DNA of 64,000 nt, from NCBI RefSeq assembly GCF_000620865.1, contig NZ_KK211190.1, positions 2,646,914 to 2,710,913 of the forward strand, given 5' to 3'. Made by a program: the position numbers and the translations under genes. Positions within the stretch are counted from its first letter, which is position 1, and each line of letters begins with the position of its first letter. A model generated the notes under the pieces. That model searched no databases, was not told where the DNA came from, and was given only the letters and a program-made list of their open reading frames with translations. This DNA comes from Exiguobacterium sibiricum 7-3 (GTDB taxonomy: Bacteria; Bacillota; Bacilli; Exiguobacteriales; Exiguobacteriaceae). This document shows positions 17,473 to 36,485 of this stretch, piece after piece.

Positions 17473-20142
17473 TTACTTCTTATTTTGCTTTTGACGGAAC
17501 GGCCACCAGACACCTTTTCCGAACGATACCGTGATCGCTGGAATCAGGAGCGGTAAGACAATCAATCCGTACAGGAGCAGACCTGTGATAACGATCGTCG
17601 CAATTTGAACCAGACTCAGAACACCCGACGGCATCATCGCACCAAATGTTCCGGCAAGGATGATGGCAGCCGTAATGATGACGGAGCCCATTTTCTTCAT
17701 CGAGACATACATCGCTTCATTTGTCTCGAGTCCATTAATCGTTTCTTCCCGGAACCGGTCGAGCAGGAAGATCGAATAATCGATTCCTAAGGCAACGAGC
17801 ATGACGAATCCGAAAAATGGAACGGCCCAGCTGATGCCGTCATAACCGAGACCATTGACGAAAATCAGTTCAGCAATCGATACCGACGTATAGTACGTCA
17901 ACAGAAGCGAACCGATCATAAACAACGGCATGATCAATGAGCGGAACATAATCGCAAGGACGATAAACAAACTGATGATCATGATGACGACAGTCCGTGA
18001 GAAATCGGCTTTTGACGTATCATTTAAATCACTGTTGATGCTCGAGATACCGCCATACGCAACTTGTGCCTGTTCAAGCGGTGTATCTTTCAGTGTACTC
18101 GCTGTCGTTTTCTTGATGGCAGCGACCGTTTCGATTGCCTCCGGTGAATACGGATCATTGTCCAGGATGACTTCGAATTTCAGACCGGTTTTGTCATCAA
18201 TCGTATAGCGGTCGATGACAGGCTCGAAGTCTTTACTCGATAAGGTGTCTTTTGGAATGAACATCCCGGTACCGCGAATCGTTTTGGAGTTGCCCATCTC
18301 TTTTAGGAAATCGGCTGCTTCTTTCAAACCGTCTTCGATTTTACCAAGACCATTATTAGCAGATCCGACACCATCAGCCAGTTGGGTTAATCCGCTACCG
18401 AGTTGACCGGCTTGTGCGCCTTGCGTTTCAATTCCGGTTGCCGCTTGTGCGATTCCCGTTTGAATTTGTGTCAATTGACCGGATAACGCTGTCAATGTTC
18501 CGACAGTTTGCGGAATGTTTTCTGCTGACTGCAATCCTTGGCCGACAAGCGCCAACTGCTGATTGATTTGACCAAGACCATCTGCAGCTTGTTGCAATTG
18601 TGCTGCACCCGCTGACGCCTGGTCACCGGCCGGAATCTGACCACTGATATTCTGTAAATTGTCTTCCACAGTCTGAAGACCTTGACCGACTTTACCAAGT
18701 CCATCTTTTGCATCCGTCAGACCAGATGCAACTTGTTTCAATTGTTGATCGACATATAAATCGTCAATGACATCGCCTGTCGGACGCGAAATCGACCGGA
18801 CAGCTTTGACACCATCGAGTTTGACCAGTTCACGGCTCAACTGTTCTGCATACGGAACCGTTTTTTCAGTCACGATGTTTTGGTCGTCCTTCAGAATAAT
18901 ATTGACCGGTAACGACTCACCGGCACCAAATCCGTCTGAAATGGCATTTAATCCTTTAACCGTCTCATACTTTGCACCAATCTCATCGACGGTGTTGAAC
19001 GATAGATCGTCATCGTATGTGAACAAGGTCGGGATTGTTACGACAGCGACGATGGCCATCGCAAGCAATGGACGACGAATCGATAAACCACCGTATCGGG
19101 CCCATAAACGACTGTCCTGATGACTTGCCGCATTTTTTGACGGCCAGAACAATTTCTCTTTTAACGTCGCCATGAAAAACGGGACGAGTGTAAAGAGAAC
19201 CAGTAACAAGACCGCGATTCCGACTGCAACGGCGACCGACGATTTAAAGATCGGGAAATCAGCGAAACCAATCGCCGAGAAGCCGACGAGGACGGCAAGA
19301 CCACTGATGAGAAGGGTCCGTCCCGCTGTTTTATAGGTATTGACGATGGCTGTCTCGACATCATGTCCGGCAGTCAATTCTTCTTTATACCGGCTCAGAA
19401 GCAGGATACAGTAATCCGTCCCGATCCCGAAGAGAATCGCTACCAGGAAAATCTGCGTGAAGTTCGAGACCGGGAATCCGAACCAATCAACGAAAAAGGC
19501 GACAAATGATTGACTCATTAAATAAGTTACACCAACCGCAAATAATGGAACGAATGGTGTGACGATCGAACGGAAGACAATCAACAACAGACCAAAAATC
19601 AGACCGACTGTGATTAATTCCGTTCGTTTCAATCCTTCTTGTGAACTTTTGTTCACATCGGCATTGATGAGTGATTCACCCGTCAGATAAATCGTCCGAT
19701 CGTCCGGTAAGAGGTCACTTCGGATATCTTCAGCGAGTGCCGTGATTTCTTCTTGCGTACCATCAACGGTAATCGGAACGAGAACTGTTTTTTTGTCTTT
19801 TGAAATCAATTGTCCTTCCGTTTCCTTACTCTCAAACGGATTCAGGACTCCTGTCACCGGTTTATCCAGCTTCTCTAAATCTTTGACGATTTGACCGATT
19901 TCCGTCCGGTCTTCTTTCGTAACGGCTTCCTTTAATGGAATGACCAGCGAAATCGTTTCTTCACTTGCACCGGCTGCTTTTAAAATATCCGCTGCCCGTT
20001 GTGAATCTGTATCACTCGCGAGCTGAATGGCACCTGCATCTTCTGCTTGTTTCGATAAGTTTGGTGCTGCTAAAAATAATCCGACTGTCGCAAGCAACAA
20101 GACGATTACGATCGGCCAACGCCATTTGACGATTTGTCGCAT
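17473..20142 (-). CDS. MMPL-family RND-type transporter
   Basis: This 889-residue protein has the MMPL layout: a TM helix, a large outer loop, a block of five or six TM helices, a second outer loop and a second TM block. The second outer loop (residues ~455-620) is a long Gly/Gln/Ala-rich region with repeating GLGQxxQGLQ-type heptads, probably coiled coil. GTDYCILL and GIDYSIFLL are the paired intramembrane proton-relay motifs of the two halves. Relatives export lipids, cell-wall precursors or drugs by proton motive force. It follows the MarR-family gene 35 bp downstream, in one operon; the substrate is unknown. Confidence 0.93.
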   Translation of the reverse strand: MRQIVKWRWPIVIVLLLATVGLFLAAPNLSKQAEDAGAIQLASDTDSQRAADILKAAGASEETISLVIPLKEAVTKEDRTEIGQIVKDLEKLDKPVTGVLNPFESKETEGQLISKDKKTVLVPITVDGTQEEITALAEDIRSDLLPDDRTIYLTGESLINADVNKSSQEGLKRTELITVGLIFGLLLIVFRSIVTPFVPLFAVGVTYLMSQSFVAFFVDWFGFPVSNFTQIFLVAILFGIGTDYCILLLSRYKEELTAGHDVETAIVNTYKTAGRTLLISGLAVLVGFSAIGFADFPIFKSSVAVAVGIAVLLLVLFTLVPFFMATLKEKLFWPSKNAASHQDSRLWARYGGLSIRRPLLAMAIVAVVTIPTLFTYDDDLSFNTVDEIGAKYETVKGLNAISDGFGAGESLPVNIILKDDQNIVTEKTVPYAEQLSRELVKLDGVKAVRSISRPTGDVIDDLYVDQQLKQVASGLTDAKDGLGKVGQGLQTVEDNLQNISGQIPAGDQASAGAAQLQQAADGLGQINQQLALVGQGLQSAENIPQTVGTLTALSGQLTQIQTGIAQAATGIETQGAQAGQLGSGLTQLADGVGSANNGLGKIEDGLKEAADFLKEMGNSKTIRGTGMFIPKDTLSSKDFEPVIDRYTIDDKTGLKFEVILDNDPYSPEAIETVAAIKKTTASTLKDTPLEQAQVAYGGISSINSDLNDTSKADFSRTVVIMIISLFIVLAIMFRSLIMPLFMIGSLLLTYYTSVSIAELIFVNGLGYDGISWAVPFFGFVMLVALGIDYSIFLLDRFREETINGLETNEAMYVSMKKMGSVIITAAIILAGTFGAMMPSGVLSLVQIATIVITGLLLYGLIVLPLLIPAITVSFGKGVWWPFRQKQNKK

Positions 20143-32810: not shown

Positions 32811-32840
32811 AAAAAAAGAGGACTGTCGCCAGCCCTCCTT
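32811..32840 (-). terminator. Terminator of the sulfur operon
   Basis: A GC-rich stem with G-T pairs (AGGAGGGCT against AGTCCTCT region) is followed on the minus strand by seven T's, ten bases after the tusA stop. Confidence 0.7.
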
Positions 32841-32849
32841 CAACTTGAA

Positions 32850-33077
32850 TTATCCTTTTTGGATCCAGAATTTTAAGACGCTGGCCTCTTCTTCGTGTTT
32901 CACAAGCTCATGACCACCTGATTTTGCCCACGCTTGCAAATCATTTTTAGCCCCTTTGTCTGTTGCATGGATTTCAAGAACCTGTCCTGATTCAAGTCCT
33001 GCGATGGCTTTTTTTGTTTTGACGATGGGCATTGGGCAGGCAAGCCCTTTTGCGTCGAGTACGAGTTCTGATTTCAT
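32850..33077 (-). CDS. TusA-family sulfur carrier protein (YrkI-like)
   Basis: This 75-residue protein has the TusA/SirA signature CPMPIVKTKKAI with Cys14 as the persulfide carrier. TusA proteins pass sulfane sulfur between rhodaneses, DsrE-type proteins and other partners. The start at 33077 follows AGGAGG; the frame continues 46 codons upstream without a better site. It is the last gene in the sulfur operon, just after the MBL-rhodanese gene (34-bp gap). The same gene set occurs in the B. subtilis yrk region. Confidence 0.93.
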   Translation of the reverse strand: MKSELVLDAKGLACPMPIVKTKKAIAGLESGQVLEIHATDKGAKNDLQAWAKSGGHELVKHEEEASVLKFWIQKG

Positions 33078-33111
33078 AATGATAATTCCTCCTGAAGTAA
33101 GTTGTTTTTGT

Positions 33112-34248
33112 TTAACGGACGGCGCAACGGTTTGGTCCGACTTCCATCTCGCGTTGTGCTTCGAGACCCGGTGTCTGTTTCCCCATGTTTGTCTCACGAA
33201 TTTCTTGATAGGCATTTGGTTGCGGTGGAAGATTTTCGGTCACCATCTTCCGGAATGTTTCTTCATCTTCGATGTTCAAGCCGTGATTGTTTGCGAGTAA
33301 GATATCGAGTTTTTCTGCGACACTGCCGTCTTCATTTAACTCTTCGATCAGCATGAAATGGGCCGGTAAGACCATCAAATCTTTTGTGAGTTCGCGGTAC
33401 GTTTTGTAAAGCGACTCCCGCAGGTCACCGACCCAGTCTTCTGCCAGACCGGCTAAATCCGGACGACCAATCGAATCGATAAATAAGATATCACCCGTTA
33501 AGAGATATCGATTGTCGACAATAAACGACGTGGAACCGATTGTATGTCCCGGGGAATACAGTGCCCGGACATCGATTTTTGTATCGCCTACTTGAACGTG
33601 GCTTCCATCTTCGAGTGCTGCATAATCAAACGTGACATCTGTCGCATCTTTTGGTGGCAACCAGTAAGTCGCTCCCGTTTTTTCAGCAATCTCACGCCCG
33701 CCGGAAATGTGATCGGCGTGAAGATGTGTATCAAAGACATGCGTGATGGTAAGTTGACGCTCGTTGGCGTAATCGAGATAAACATCTGTCATCCGTGTTG
33801 CATCCACGAGGACGGCTTCGCCTTCCGAGATGATCATGTACGATAAACAACCTTTCCCGATCCGGACGAATTGAACGACTTCACCTTGATCTGCTCCAGT
33901 TTCATTTAATGATCCAAGTGAAATCGGCTCCAAGTGTTCGCTCCAGGCTTTCATGCCTCCTGAAAGATACGAGACGGTCCGTCCCGCTTCTTCCAATAAA
34001 TCCGCTACAAAAATCGATGATCCTTCTTTTGCACAGACGACGAGAACAGGTTCATCTGTCGGCAGTTGATCTAAAATATCTTCGACACCGTCGAGTAAAT
34101 CGAAATACGGAACATTGAGATACGAAAACTGTTCTCCTTCAATTTTCCAGTCTTGAAATGCATCTTCATTTCGGACATCTAAGATAAACATTTTTTCACG
34201 GTGAATGATTTTTTGCGTGACTTCTTTTGTTGTCATTGCTTGTGCCAT
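33112..34248 (-). CDS. Rhodanese-MBL fusion, persulfide dioxygenase-like (YrkH-like)
   Basis: This 378-residue protein has an N-terminal rhodanese domain (residues ~5-105) with Cys72 in VVCAKEGS, then a metallo-beta-lactamase domain (~125-340) with HLHADH at residues 175-180 and a later [11 protein letters not shown]. Members of this family oxidise low-molecular-weight persulfides to sulfite or thiosulfate, with the rhodanese domain handling sulfane sulfur. The domain order (rhodanese first) is the reverse of the CstB arrangement. AGGAGG precedes the ATG, and the gene starts 32 bp after yrkF-like. Confidence 0.9.
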
Positions 34249-34280
34249 CTGCTTGATTCCTCCTGATCATAATTTACGGA

Positions 34281-34847
34281 TTAAATGGTTTGATTCGTGT
34301 CATACTTCCAGTCACTCATGCCAGGGATCACATTTTGAACGTTGAATCCTTTCACATCGAGCTGTTGGCAGGCTAAGTCACTCCGACTGCCTGTCCGACA
34401 GACGACATAAATCGTTTTCGATGTGTCGAGTTCTCCGATTCGCGTCTCCAGTTCACCGAGCGGAATGTTGACGGCATTCGGGATATGGCAGAACGCATAT
34501 TCAGCAGTTTCCCGGACGTCCAAAATGAGCGTATCCGGATTGTTGCGAACCGTTTCAACGGTCTCGTTCGTAACAACCGATTTAAATTCCGGTGCTTCTT
34601 GCTCGTCACCGGAAGATTTACGGACGTAATGCCGTAAGACATCTCCTTCTTCGATCGTTCCAAGATATTGATTCCCGGTACTGTTCGCCCAGGCACGAAG
34701 ATCGGCTGTTGATCCTTTGTCAGTTGCCTGAACTTCCACGACTTGACCCGGTTCCAGCGTCTTCATCGTTTTTTTCGTCCGAACAATCGGCATCGGACAT
34801 GCTAAACCACGTGCATCAAGTACGATATCCGTTTTGATAGTCTGCAA
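34281..34847 (-). CDS. TusA-rhodanese fusion (YrkF-like)
   Basis: This 188-residue protein fuses a TusA domain (residues ~1-76; CPMPIVRTKK with Cys17) to a rhodanese domain (~90-185; Cys150 in VVCRTGSRS). The two active cysteines in one chain should allow direct sulfur transfer from rhodanese to carrier. The start is a TTG at 34847 with AAAGGAGC about 9 bases upstream. A CstR-type palindrome (34864-34877) lies directly upstream of the ribosome binding site. It is the third-from-last gene in the operon. Confidence 0.92.
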   Translation of the reverse strand: MQTIKTDIVLDARGLACPMPIVRTKKTMKTLEPGQVVEVQATDKGSTADLRAWANSTGNQYLGTIEEGDVLRHYVRKSSGDEQEAPEFKSVVTNETVETVRNNPDTLILDVRETAEYAFCHIPNAVNIPLGELETRIGELDTSKTIYVVCRTGSRSDLACQQLDVKGFNVQNVIPGMSDWKYDTNQTI

Positions 34848-34863
34848 AAGTATTCGCTCCTTT

Positions 34864-34877
34864 TACCTATAGGGGTA
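34864..34877 (-). promoter_or_regulatory. CstR-type operator upstream of the TusA-rhodanese gene
   Basis: TACC-TATAGG-GGTA, the third copy of the palindrome seen at 36099-36112 and 36463-36478. It lies just before the ribosome binding site. Confidence 0.7.
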
Positions 34878-34895
34878 TAATTAAGATTAAAAAAA

Positions 34896-35192
34896 TTAGT
34901 TGGTTTTACCTTCGTACGACATCATGCCGCCATCCATATTGATGACATCAAAGCCTTGTCCTTCAAGGTACGTTGCTGCACGGCCACTGCGGGCACCAGA
35001 ACGGCACACCATGACATATTGTTTTTTCTTATCGAGTTCGTTCATTTTAAACTCGACGAGACCAAGTGGAATATGAATCGCTTCCGGGATCTTGCCTTCT
35101 TTGACTTCATCCACTTCGCGGACATCAATGATGTTGAGTTGTTCCCCGTTTTCAAGCTTTTCCTGTACTTCTTTTGCTGTGAATCGTTTCAT
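34896..35192 (-). CDS. Single-domain rhodanese sulfurtransferase
   Basis: This 98-residue cytoplasmic rhodanese has Cys63 in the loop MVCRSGARSGRA and the conserved DVREVDEV motif. It transfers sulfane sulfur from thiosulfate or persulfides in this family. The length is that of a GlpE/PspE-type single domain. GAGGAGG precedes the ATG. It lies between the membrane-anchored rhodanese and the TusA-rhodanese gene. Confidence 0.93.
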   Translation of the reverse strand: MKRFTAKEVQEKLENGEQLNIIDVREVDEVKEGKIPEAIHIPLGLVEFKMNELDKKKQYVMVCRSGARSGRAATYLEGQGFDVINMDGGMMSYEGKTN

Positions 35193-35214
35193 CTGTGATT
35201 CCTCCTCGTGTTTT

Positions 35215-35574
35215 TTAACGCCAAGCGTTCATTCCGCCCGACACTTCTATAACCTGGGCATAACCCGCTTTTTTTAATTGTTTGACCGCCTGTTTACTGC
35301 GCATGCCGCTCTGACAGATCACGATGACTTCTTTGTCTTTCGGAATCTTGTCGAGTTGTGTCGGCAATACTTGAAGCGGAATGTTTTTAAAGCCTTTAAT
35401 GTGATTGTCTTTGAATTCGCCAGGTGTGCGGACGTCCAAATAAAATCGGTTGCGGTCACCTAACTTCTGTTTTAATTCGGAGGTCGACCATTTGTTGATA
35501 CCTTTAGTTGGTGCGAACATCCGATAAGCAAGAAACGCAACGATGATTAGAAATACGATAGTCAAGATATCCAC
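35215..35574 (-). CDS. Membrane-anchored rhodanese sulfurtransferase
   Basis: This 119-residue protein has one N-terminal membrane helix (residues ~3-18) and a rhodanese domain (~28-119) with Cys87 in VICQSGMRSKQA. The domain probably faces the cytoplasm or membrane surface; orientation is not certain. The start is GTG at 35574 after GGAGGG. It follows the DsrE gene by 21 bp. A membrane-tethered rhodanese beside cytosolic rhodanese, TusA and DsrE suggests a sulfur relay at the membrane. Confidence 0.88.
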   Translation of the reverse strand: MDILTIVFLIIVAFLAYRMFAPTKGINKWSTSELKQKLGDRNRFYLDVRTPGEFKDNHIKGFKNIPLQVLPTQLDKIPKDKEVIVICQSGMRSKQAVKQLKKAGYAQVIEVSGGMNAWR

Positions 35575-35595
35575 TTACATCATCCCTCCTCGAGA

Positions 35596-36075
35596 TTAGA
35601 TGAACAGATTGACGTTTCCGTCTTCCGCATCAGCAAGATATGCGGCGACGCCGGCATATTCAATTCCATCATGCAATTCTTCTTGTTTTAATCCGAGCAA
35701 GTCCATCGTCATCGTACACGCGACCAGTTTTACGTCTTGCTCTTTCGCCAGTTCAATTAGATCGGGAAGCGGCATTGCGTTATGTTTTTTCATGACGTTT
35801 TTGATCATCTTTTGACCGGCACCACCAAAGTTCATCTTCGAGAGTGGCATCTTGTCTGCTCCGCGCGGCATGAATTTCCCGAACATTTTTTCAAGTAACG
35901 TTTTATCCGGTTGAATCGGTTCATCCTTGCGCATCGCGTTTAATCCCCAGAACGTGTGGAAAATCGTGACTTCATGATCGTATGCCGCTGCACCGTTGGC
36001 AATGATATATGCTGCCATGACCTTATCGTAATCTCCACTGAACAATACAATCGTTGTTTTTTTAATCTCTGACAT
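35596..36075 (-). CDS. DsrE/DsrF-like protein (YrkE-like)
   Basis: This 159-residue protein is of the DsrE/DrsH-like family, with the N-terminal TTIVLFSGDYDKVMAAY and Cys120 in VACTMTMD. DsrE-type proteins accept persulfide sulfur at a cysteine and pass it to TusA in sulfur-oxidising relays. Cytoplasmic. AGTGGAGG precedes the ATG. A CstR-like operator (36099-36112) lies between it and cstR, so it may have its own regulated start. Confidence 0.88.
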   Translation of the reverse strand: MSEIKKTTIVLFSGDYDKVMAAYIIANGAAAYDHEVTIFHTFWGLNAMRKDEPIQPDKTLLEKMFGKFMPRGADKMPLSKMNFGGAGQKMIKNVMKKHNAMPLPDLIELAKEQDVKLVACTMTMDLLGLKQEELHDGIEYAGVAAYLADAEDGNVNLFI

Positions 36076-36098
36076 CTGAATAATTCCTCCACTTACTT

Positions 36099-36112
36099 TA
36101 CCCTAAGGGGTA
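36099..36112 (-). promoter_or_regulatory. CstR-type operator between the repressor and dsrE genes
   Basis: TACCC-TAAG-GGGTA is a perfect inverted repeat with 5-bp arms and a 4-bp centre. I did not find a convincing -35/-10 pair beside it. Confidence 0.65.
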
Positions 36113-36132
36113 TATTTTATTTTAAAAATTTT

Positions 36133-36396
36133 TTATCTGCTCTTCAATAACAGTTGAACGGCTTCTGCTACGGCTTGTTCATGATTGTCTGCCGTGTCAT
36201 CGTTCGTCACGCAGTCAATGAGGTTTTCACTCACGACCAGTCCAATGACACGATCAATCGCACTGCGTGTCGCACTCAGTTGAGTGACAACATCTTTGCA
36301 AGATGCTTCTTCTCTCATCATCCGGGTGATGGCGTGAAGTTGCCCTTCAATCCGGTTCATCCGGTGAATGATTTTATTTTCGTATGTTTTTTCCAT
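36133..36396 (-). CDS. CsoR-family persulfide sensor, CstR-like
   Basis: This 87-residue protein is a helical CsoR/RcnR/FrmR-family repressor with Cys33 (EEASCKDV) and Cys62 (LIDCVTND). In copper-sensing CsoR a histidine lies four residues before the second cysteine; here that position is Asn58. This and the sulfur gene cluster point to persulfide sensing by disulfide or trisulfide between the two cysteines, as in Staphylococcus CstR, rather than copper. AAAGGAGC precedes the ATG. It is the first gene of the sulfur operon; its promoter carries the operator at 36463-36478. Confidence 0.88.
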   Translation of the reverse strand: MEKTYENKIIHRMNRIEGQLHAITRMMREEASCKDVVTQLSATRSAIDRVIGLVVSENLIDCVTNDDTADNHEQAVAEAVQLLLKSR

Positions 36397-36456
36397 ATGA
36401 AGAACACGCTCCTTTTCTTCGTGTGACCTGTCTCATACCTAATGGCTACATTCCAT

Positions 36457-36485
36457 ACAATAATACCTATAGGGGTATAAGTCAA
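36457..36485 (-). promoter_or_regulatory. Sulfur operon promoter with CstR-type operator in the spacer
   Basis: TTGACT (36485-36480) and TATTGT (36462-36457) on the minus strand are 17 bp apart. ATACC-TATAGG-GGTAT (36463-36478) fills nearly all of the spacer, so a bound repressor would block RNA polymerase. The -35 contains the stop codon of the LysR gene upstream. Confidence 0.75.

Follow-up and report, generated by a model that had tools for sequence, protein, structure and literature searches.

Within a 64,000-nucleotide stretch of the 3.08 Mb genome of Exiguobacterium sibiricum 7-3 (contig NZ_KK211190.1, positions 2,646,914 to 2,710,913; hereafter the window), an operon of sulfur-relay genes on the minus strand carries three copies of the palindrome TACC-N6-GGTA, located before the gene for a CstR-type repressor, before dsrE, and before the gene for a TusA-rhodanese fusion. 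By Pfam search, the genes follow in the order CstR-type repressor (cstR), dsrE, two rhodaneses (rhdA and rhdB), TusA-rhodanese fusion (tusA-rhd), rhodanese-metallo-beta-lactamase protein (pdo), and tusA, and, judged from the sequence, this is an Exiguobacterium operon related to Bacillus yrkDEFHI, with a repressor of the CstR type. A first-pass annotation of this DNA had listed three rhodanese proteins, DsrE, TusA, and a persulfide dioxygenase-like enzyme. DsrE and the dioxygenase-like protein stand in this list, but the rhodaneses are two single-domain proteins plus the TusA-rhodanese fusion, the dioxygenase-like protein bears a rhodanese domain of its own, and a stand-alone TusA comes last. 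The genes and the three palindromes, referred to below as operators 1, 2, and 3, are as follows, in the direction of transcription.

36464..36477, palindrome: putative operator 1, TACCTATAGGGGTA on the plus strand
36133..36396, minus strand: CstR/YrkD-type repressor of 87 amino acids (DUF156, PF02583), with Cys33 and Cys62, and Asn at the CsoR metal-binding His position
36099..36112, palindrome: putative operator 2, TACCCTAAGGGGTA on the plus strand, between cstR and dsrE
35596..36075, minus strand: DsrE2-like sulfur carrier, YrkE relative (PF13686)
35215..35574, minus strand: rhodanese A (PF00581)
34896..35192, minus strand: rhodanese B (PF00581)
34864..34877, palindrome: putative operator 3, TACCTATAGGGGTA on the plus strand, adjoining upstream the Shine-Dalgarno sequence of the TusA-rhodanese gene
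34857..34863, minus strand: Shine-Dalgarno sequence AAAGGAG of the TusA-rhodanese gene, invariant across the 16-operon alignment described below
34281..34847, minus strand: TusA-rhodanese fusion, YrkF relative, with a TTG start (PF01206 and PF00581)
33112..34248, minus strand: rhodanese-metallo-beta-lactamase protein, persulfide dioxygenase-like, YrkH relative (PF00581 and PF00753)
32850..33080, minus strand: stand-alone TusA, YrkI relative, the last gene of the operon here (PF01206)

The pattern TACC-N6-GGTA was confirmed at all three places named in the first-pass annotation, the span 36463-36478 given there for the first site being 36464-36477 plus one flanking base per side. A total of four matches were found in the window, as against a mean of 0.25 and a maximum of three in 100 shuffles; the fourth (TACCATCAACGGTA, 19758-19771) lies outside the operon, is unlike the other three, and is probably due to chance. 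On the genome-wide scale, TACCYNWNRGGGTA without mismatch occurs at these three sites only. Sites with one mismatch are scattered over the genome, and one of them that was inspected (L018) lies inside a gene read as a primase without family search. A wide survey was made of the best 80 of 557 candidate CstR loci, mostly of Bacillales (1.097 Mb), a set that leans to CstRs similar to the one described here. In these loci TACC-N6-GGTA matched 224 times, compared with 5-36 times for 11 permuted words and 4-20 times for the same half-sites with other spacers of 0-14 bp. A chance origin of the motif is excluded by the genome-wide and permuted-word counts.

The repressor matched PF02583 with a score of 80.3 bits (cut-off, 22.8). 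Upon alignment with the CsoR and the CstR paralogue of the same genome, its Cys33 and Cys62 correspond to the CstR cysteine pair, and Asn is found where the CsoR of this genome has His. In Staphylococcus aureus CstR, the sensing cysteines are Cys31 and Cys60 (PMC5480029; PMC9774590), and the best match of the repressor among solved structures was 7mq1/7mq2, of which 7MQ2 is named as CstR in PMC9774590. The DUF156 fold, two cysteines, the lack of the CsoR-type histidine, and linked genes for rhodanese, TusA, and persulfide dioxygenase are thus all found together, as is, on the level of sequence alone, an operator palindrome with a G/C tract near the promoter (operator 1 inside the spacer of promoter candidate P1, see below). 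With this cysteine pair, conserved half-sites around a variable middle, and specificity for the 6-bp spacer, the three palindromes are likely the operators of the operon's own CstR-type repressor, and the first-pass reading of nested CstR-type operators was borne out to this extent.

A second CstR-type protein, 57% identical to the first, is encoded in the same genome (C7:532919-533155; L021:1489-1749), and a match at 57-60% is present in all 19 genomes of the genus. The spacer of its promoter carries a differing conserved site, TACC-N4-TGGGCA, in eight of nine aligned loci (TACT in L109), which suggests that this paralogue has a separate operator specificity. Because its own promoter bears this different site, the second CstR is less likely to be the owner of the three sites.

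A total of 38 genomes of the family were searched. A CstR at least 84% identical was found in 15 of the 19 genus members, including the present one, and a CstR of 65% identity in G025; the operon alignment comprised 16 operons (own, 14 others of the genus, and that of G025). The gene order from cstR to tusA was identical in all 16. Operators 1 and 2 were exact, with their half-sites kept, in 16/16, and operator 3 was exact in nine, one base off in the right arm in six (L031-L036), and absent in one (L037). The middle bases of the operators are variable and the half-sites constant, as expected for protein-binding sites.

Nested operators are common outside this genus. Among the 80 surveyed loci, a complete operon, defined as cstR plus tusA-rhd plus pdo, was present in 35, including two of Exiguobacterium (L043 and L044). 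Two sites were found in three of these operons, three sites in six, four sites in 12, and five sites in 14, these counts including four sites inside genes (L074, L089, L095, and L096). An operator was located before tusA-rhd in 27 of the 35, at 10-22 nt from the start (one at 46), and before pdo in 24, at 7-12 nt from the start in all but one of them. The genera with a tusA-rhd site include Metabacillus, Peribacillus, Neobacillus, Niallia, Psychrobacillus, Solibacillus, Lysinibacillus, Gottfriedia, and Heyndrickxia. Forty further loci (L123-L162) were fetched from the 62 dsrE places in the family of Metabacillus genome G038, two of them (L142 and L149) being incomplete at contig ends. Near yrkD and yrkE, sites are present in the loci L123-L142, which we take to belong to the subtilis/licheniformis group, but tusA-rhd and pdo have no exact site in front of them. 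A tusA-rhd site occurs in 11 of the remaining 19 loci (L144-L162; L143 is a duplicate), not counting a match at L161, an artefact of a gene start lying off the end of the stretch. An Exiguobacterium-only novelty of site 3 is excluded by this survey; because the tusA-rhd site is found in so many other genera, site 3 is, from the comparison of sequences, an old or recurrent feature not peculiar to this genome. The first-pass remark that known CstR systems have fewer sites described holds for the Bacillus licheniformis study, with two YrkD-bound regions (PMC9918477), but not for genomes, since 26 of the 35 complete operons carry four or five sites.

Some variants were noted in these surveys. Upstream of pdo (L051, L052, L094, L097, and others), only 7-12 nt separate the operator from the start, and by eye the right arm of the operator (AGGGGGTA) could double as a Shine-Dalgarno sequence. 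In L089, L095, L096, and L158, TACC-N6-GGTA in the form TACC(A/C)AATGCGGTA lies within the coding sequence of tusA-rhd and may reflect coding constraint. In 16 subtilis-like loci (L123-L136, L140, and L141), a C-rich non-palindromic element (ATACCCCCACCCCTAT or close to it) occupies the operator's place before tusA-rhd; it resembles an operator with the right arm turned round, and by eye a T run of at least five lies ahead of it in nine of the 16.

For comparison of promoter signals, 390 sites from 115 loci were pooled, leaving out L143 (duplicate of L052) and L023 and L030 (duplicates of L043 and L044), and without L038-L042. The survey sets may overlap further within the pool, which is addressed by a 75% similarity filter in the T-run counts below. 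Shuffles in the promoter, folding, and T-run tests preserve base composition only. Two promoter candidates were recognized in the window.

36457..36485, minus strand: promoter candidate P1, TTGACT, 17-bp spacer, TATTGT (9/12 for sigma-A), with operator 1 wholly within the spacer
36119..36147, minus strand: weak promoter candidate P2, TTGAAG-N17-TAAAAT (9/12), at the end of cstR; no clear conservation within the genus by eye

The arrangement of P1, with the operator in the promoter spacer, is conserved in the genus and in other genera. Before cstR, a -35 element of at least 5/6 stands at a fixed place in 97 of 120 pooled sites, and a sigma-A signal of at least 10/12 was detected at 71 of the 120. 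The same signal was detected at 0/46 sites before tusA-rhd, 0/37 before pdo, and 4/73 before dsrE (within 45 nt), all about the level of shuffles. The first-pass annotation had proposed several regulated start points or nested repression; the nesting of sites stands, whereas a role of inner sites in general as starts is not supported, the class of site 3 giving no sigma-A signal of this strength. Because a promoter signal is found in the first intergenic region and none before tusA-rhd or pdo, inner start points appear plausible for that region and not for the deeper sites. For a start point at site 2, the window offers the weak 9/12 candidate only, but the corresponding B. licheniformis region is active in a reporter assay in Escherichia coli (PMC9918477).

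The inner operators differ from operator 1 also in what lies upstream. Both in the window match the composite pattern TTTTT-N9-12-TACCN6GGTA.

36124..36134, minus strand: coding-strand A6T5 tract, separated by 11 bp from operator 2 downstream
34889..34895, minus strand: coding-strand T7 run that immediately follows the stop codon of rhodanese B and is separated by 11 bp from operator 3 downstream

This composite occurs at one further place in the genome, and a reversed control pattern once. In the pooled set, a T run of at least five ending 9-12 bp upstream of the operator was found at 37/47 tusA-rhd, 29/38 pdo, and 51/73 dsrE sites (shuffle means, 0.4, 0.8, and 1.8, respectively), in classes whose limits (next gene, within 45 nt) were fixed after viewing the alignments, so that the test was not blind. 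When sequences at least 75% alike were removed, the counts were 16/23, 22/30, and 28/41, respectively. No A run of at least five ends at this place before any of these three groups of inner operators, and the promoter-class operators have the T run at 16/120 sites. Among sites with a T run of at least four, the gap to the operator is exactly 11 bp in 35/41 cases before tusA-rhd, 32/36 before pdo, and 44/66 before dsrE, and it stays fixed before tusA-rhd while the distance from operator to start varies as given above. The presence of T6 or longer in the 75 nt before a gene was also compared between rows with and without an exact operator. It was found in 28/39 versus 7/33 rows before tusA-rhd, 27/38 versus 7/36 before pdo, and 10/25 versus 1/59 before tusA, and in 0/38 and 1/48 operator-free rows, respectively, before rhdA and rhdB. 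Of the T6 rows lacking an exact operator, a one-base-off operator is held by 7/7 before pdo, 6/9 before dsrE, and 1/7 before tusA-rhd; in five of the other tusA-rhd rows the C-rich non-palindromic element is present.

These T runs span about 12-18 bp upstream of the operator. When RNA polymerase I (Pol I) meets Reb1 or Nsi1, it comes to a halt 15 bp upstream of the protein site, within a T-rich sequence that drives it to backtrack (PMC12366685). In bacteria, a review names CcpA and CodY among the roadblock proteins of B. subtilis and describes Mfd-dependent release (PMC10310618). Because the geometry matches that of the Pol I roadblock terminators, a repressor roadblock is the simplest reading of the inner sites. 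We consider it somewhat probable that the operators are of two kinds, operator 1 blocking initiation from within the promoter spacer, and operators 2 and 3 being roadblocks in the transcribed region behind a T tract.

From the motifs, their conservation, the difference between the classes, and the fixed spacing, all of which were observed directly, we infer CstR binding, collision, release, and ordered opening at these sites as follows. CstR bound at operator 1, in the spacer of the best-supported sigma-A promoter, would block initiation. Operators 2 and 3 would lie inside the transcribed region, each behind an A/T tract ending 11 bp upstream, and RNA polymerase arriving from P1, or by read-through from the upstream lysR gene, which lies on the same strand and ends 4 bases from operator 1, would collide there with bound CstR. 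The stalled polymerase would then have its active site close to the T tract, and the weakness of the rU:dA hybrid at this place should favour backtracking and release. Upon modification of CstR by persulfide, all operators would be freed, and the promoter and the inner gates would open together or in the order of their affinity. A further possibility, which we put forward tentatively and by analogy, is that the inner elements (T tract, 11 bp, and CstR operator) terminate transcription under ligand control and without a hairpin. As with Reb1 or TTF1, the bound protein would halt the polymerase on the T tract and trigger its release, and the elements, recurring ahead of one gene module after another, would form a ladder on which a persulfide signal opens the operon gate by gate across Bacillales.

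Several observations weigh against the roadblock. T6 before dsrE is no commoner with an exact operator (34/56) than without (9/12), and six of the seven T6 rows before tusA-rhd without an exact operator are also without a one-base-off site. The tract in Exiguobacterium is often A6T3 (L023, L024, L026, and L029), so that the transcript would not always contain a long U run, and in most Exiguobacterium relatives T runs end 10 bp before operator 1 as well. The variation of site 3 among the relatives, one base off in six and absent in another, indicates that it is dispensable. A hairpin upstream of the T run is not general either. A minimum free energy below -6 kcal/mol was obtained for only 3/41 tusA-rhd, 2/36 pdo, and 9/66 dsrE sites, with a mean folding z of -0.5 to -0.7. 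An intrinsic (hairpin-U tract) terminator as the general reading is excluded by this folding, some dsrE and pdo sites being exceptions (e.g. L049, L067, and L118), and release would have to depend on the T tract, on Mfd, or on some further factor.

Promoter signals near some inner operators also count against the roadblock, and these lead to the rival explanation that each inner operator represses a weak start point of its own. The candidate P2 (TTGAAG-N17-TAAAAT) before operator 2 scores 9/12, equal to P1, and sigma-A signals are present at 22/27 operators before a tusA that follows cstR and at 14/40 sites farther upstream of dsrE, which agrees with the promoter found at IR2 in B. licheniformis. 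IR2, which is in the place of operator 2 and is bound by YrkD, drove the reporter in E. coli with a 5' end there, while none was found in the native host (PMC9918477); operator 2 may accordingly be promoter-linked. Nested promoters are nevertheless a rather doubtful explanation of the set as a whole. They are difficult to reconcile with the lack of sigma-A signal at the tusA-rhd and pdo sites, and the pdo operator ends so close to the start codon (7-12 nt in 23 of 24 operons), with a right arm that by eye is Shine-Dalgarno-like, that little room would be left for a start downstream.

About equally doubtful is the explanation of the A/T tract as a structural extension of the operator, which would improve CstR binding at inner sites by bending or indirect readout with no direct link to RNA polymerase. 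Both A6T3 and T7 forms occur, as such a role would allow, and 11 bp is about one helical turn, but the tract is missing at most promoter-class operators, and it stands on the upstream side in alignments and logos, with no A run of at least five ending there. Since this DNA-shape effect is compatible with roadblocks, the confidences given here to the separate explanations sum to more than one.

It is improbable that the extra sites only raise the local concentration of repressor or loop its tetramers to tighten repression of P1. Several operators per operon would serve this purpose, and looping is cited as strengthening weak roadblocks (PMC10310618), but the location of inner sites immediately before gene starts and of the T tract 11 bp upstream mainly at inner sites would both be left unexplained. 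A role of the palindromes at the RNA level, in the form of small hairpins close to the ribosome-binding site, was rejected as very improbable. Sites 2 and 3, probably transcribed and near Shine-Dalgarno sequences, could form a 4-bp UACC/GGUA stem, but the same motif fills the P1 spacer at site 1, which P1 would not transcribe and which is kept in 16/16 operons.

The proposed two kinds of operator may be compared with known systems. In locus L137, which we take to be that of B. licheniformis, two exact operators lie in the yrkD-yrkE interval, yrkD is preceded by a one-base-off site, and yrkF lacks an exact operator in front of it. The yrkDEFHIJ operon of L123, presumably that of B. subtilis, is like the present one in carrying three exact operators, but one is about 430 bp upstream of yrkD, two lie between yrkD and yrkE, and neither yrkF nor yrkH has an exact operator before it. 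Ahead of yrkF there is a T5 run together with a C-rich element that is altered and non-palindromic. In the staphylococcal loci of S. shinii (L062) and S. nepalensis (L063), two operators are located in the divergent region before cstR, and the inner genes are not each preceded by one; L062 carries a single additional exact site.

That two regions exert nested control is already known from B. licheniformis MW3, of which the yrkD cluster has the same core genes. YrkD recognizes the region preceding yrkD as well as the yrkD-yrkE interval, with dissociation constants of 2.4 and 2.3 uM for IR1 and IR2; elemental sulfur-treated YrkD does not bind, and the sqr transcript is up 87-fold in the yrkD mutant (PMC9918477). 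As far as the available part of that report goes, binding was screened in promoter-harbouring intergenic regions, and no operator before yrkF is described. The cst operon of S. aureus is alike in that a CstR with two sensing cysteines controls genes for persulfide handling, a single operon being the likely direct target (PMC5480029). In the portions of the open-licence literature searched, no description was found of operators deeper in the operon or of the T-tract composite. Among the matches listed for CsoR or CstR with a roadblock or with internal or multiple operators there was no such system, and a search for bacterial roadblock termination with a T tract gave Pol II work only.

The Pol I terminators with Reb1, Nsi1, or TTF1 share a protein site with a non-template T-rich stretch about 12-18 bp upstream, but they are eukaryotic and their release needs an RNA hairpin (PMC12366685), while the elements described here are bacterial, possibly ligand-controlled, and have no general hairpin. 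The inner sites are therefore only likened to Pol I-type terminators and are not classed among them. The roadblocks of LacI, CcpA, and CodY are similar in that a DNA-bound regulator downstream of the start stops the polymerase, but in the accessible text of PMC10310618 neither a fixed T tract nor a ladder of sites in one operon is described for them.

The fixed-geometry composite element is shared by Exiguobacterium and several further genera of Bacilli. The usual picture of a repressor places it at the promoter. If the proposal of inner roadblocks is true, one sulfur-sensing repressor may control elongation besides initiation by means of such a composite repeated within one operon, and the inner sites would be natural examples of T tracts possibly aiding roadblock termination in bacteria.

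With respect to the neighbouring genes, a TauE gene lies divergent from the lysR gene upstream of the operon. A TauE-like gene was also detected 3' of tusA in 13 of 15 fetched relatives (tblastn, 25-29%), the same tblastn search giving no match in the own genome (window 32843 and below), L032, or L033. In G025, the 3' end of tauE contains an operator-like site (L037:1266-1279), immediately ahead of a second dioxygenase-like gene that is encoded on the strand opposite to cstR.

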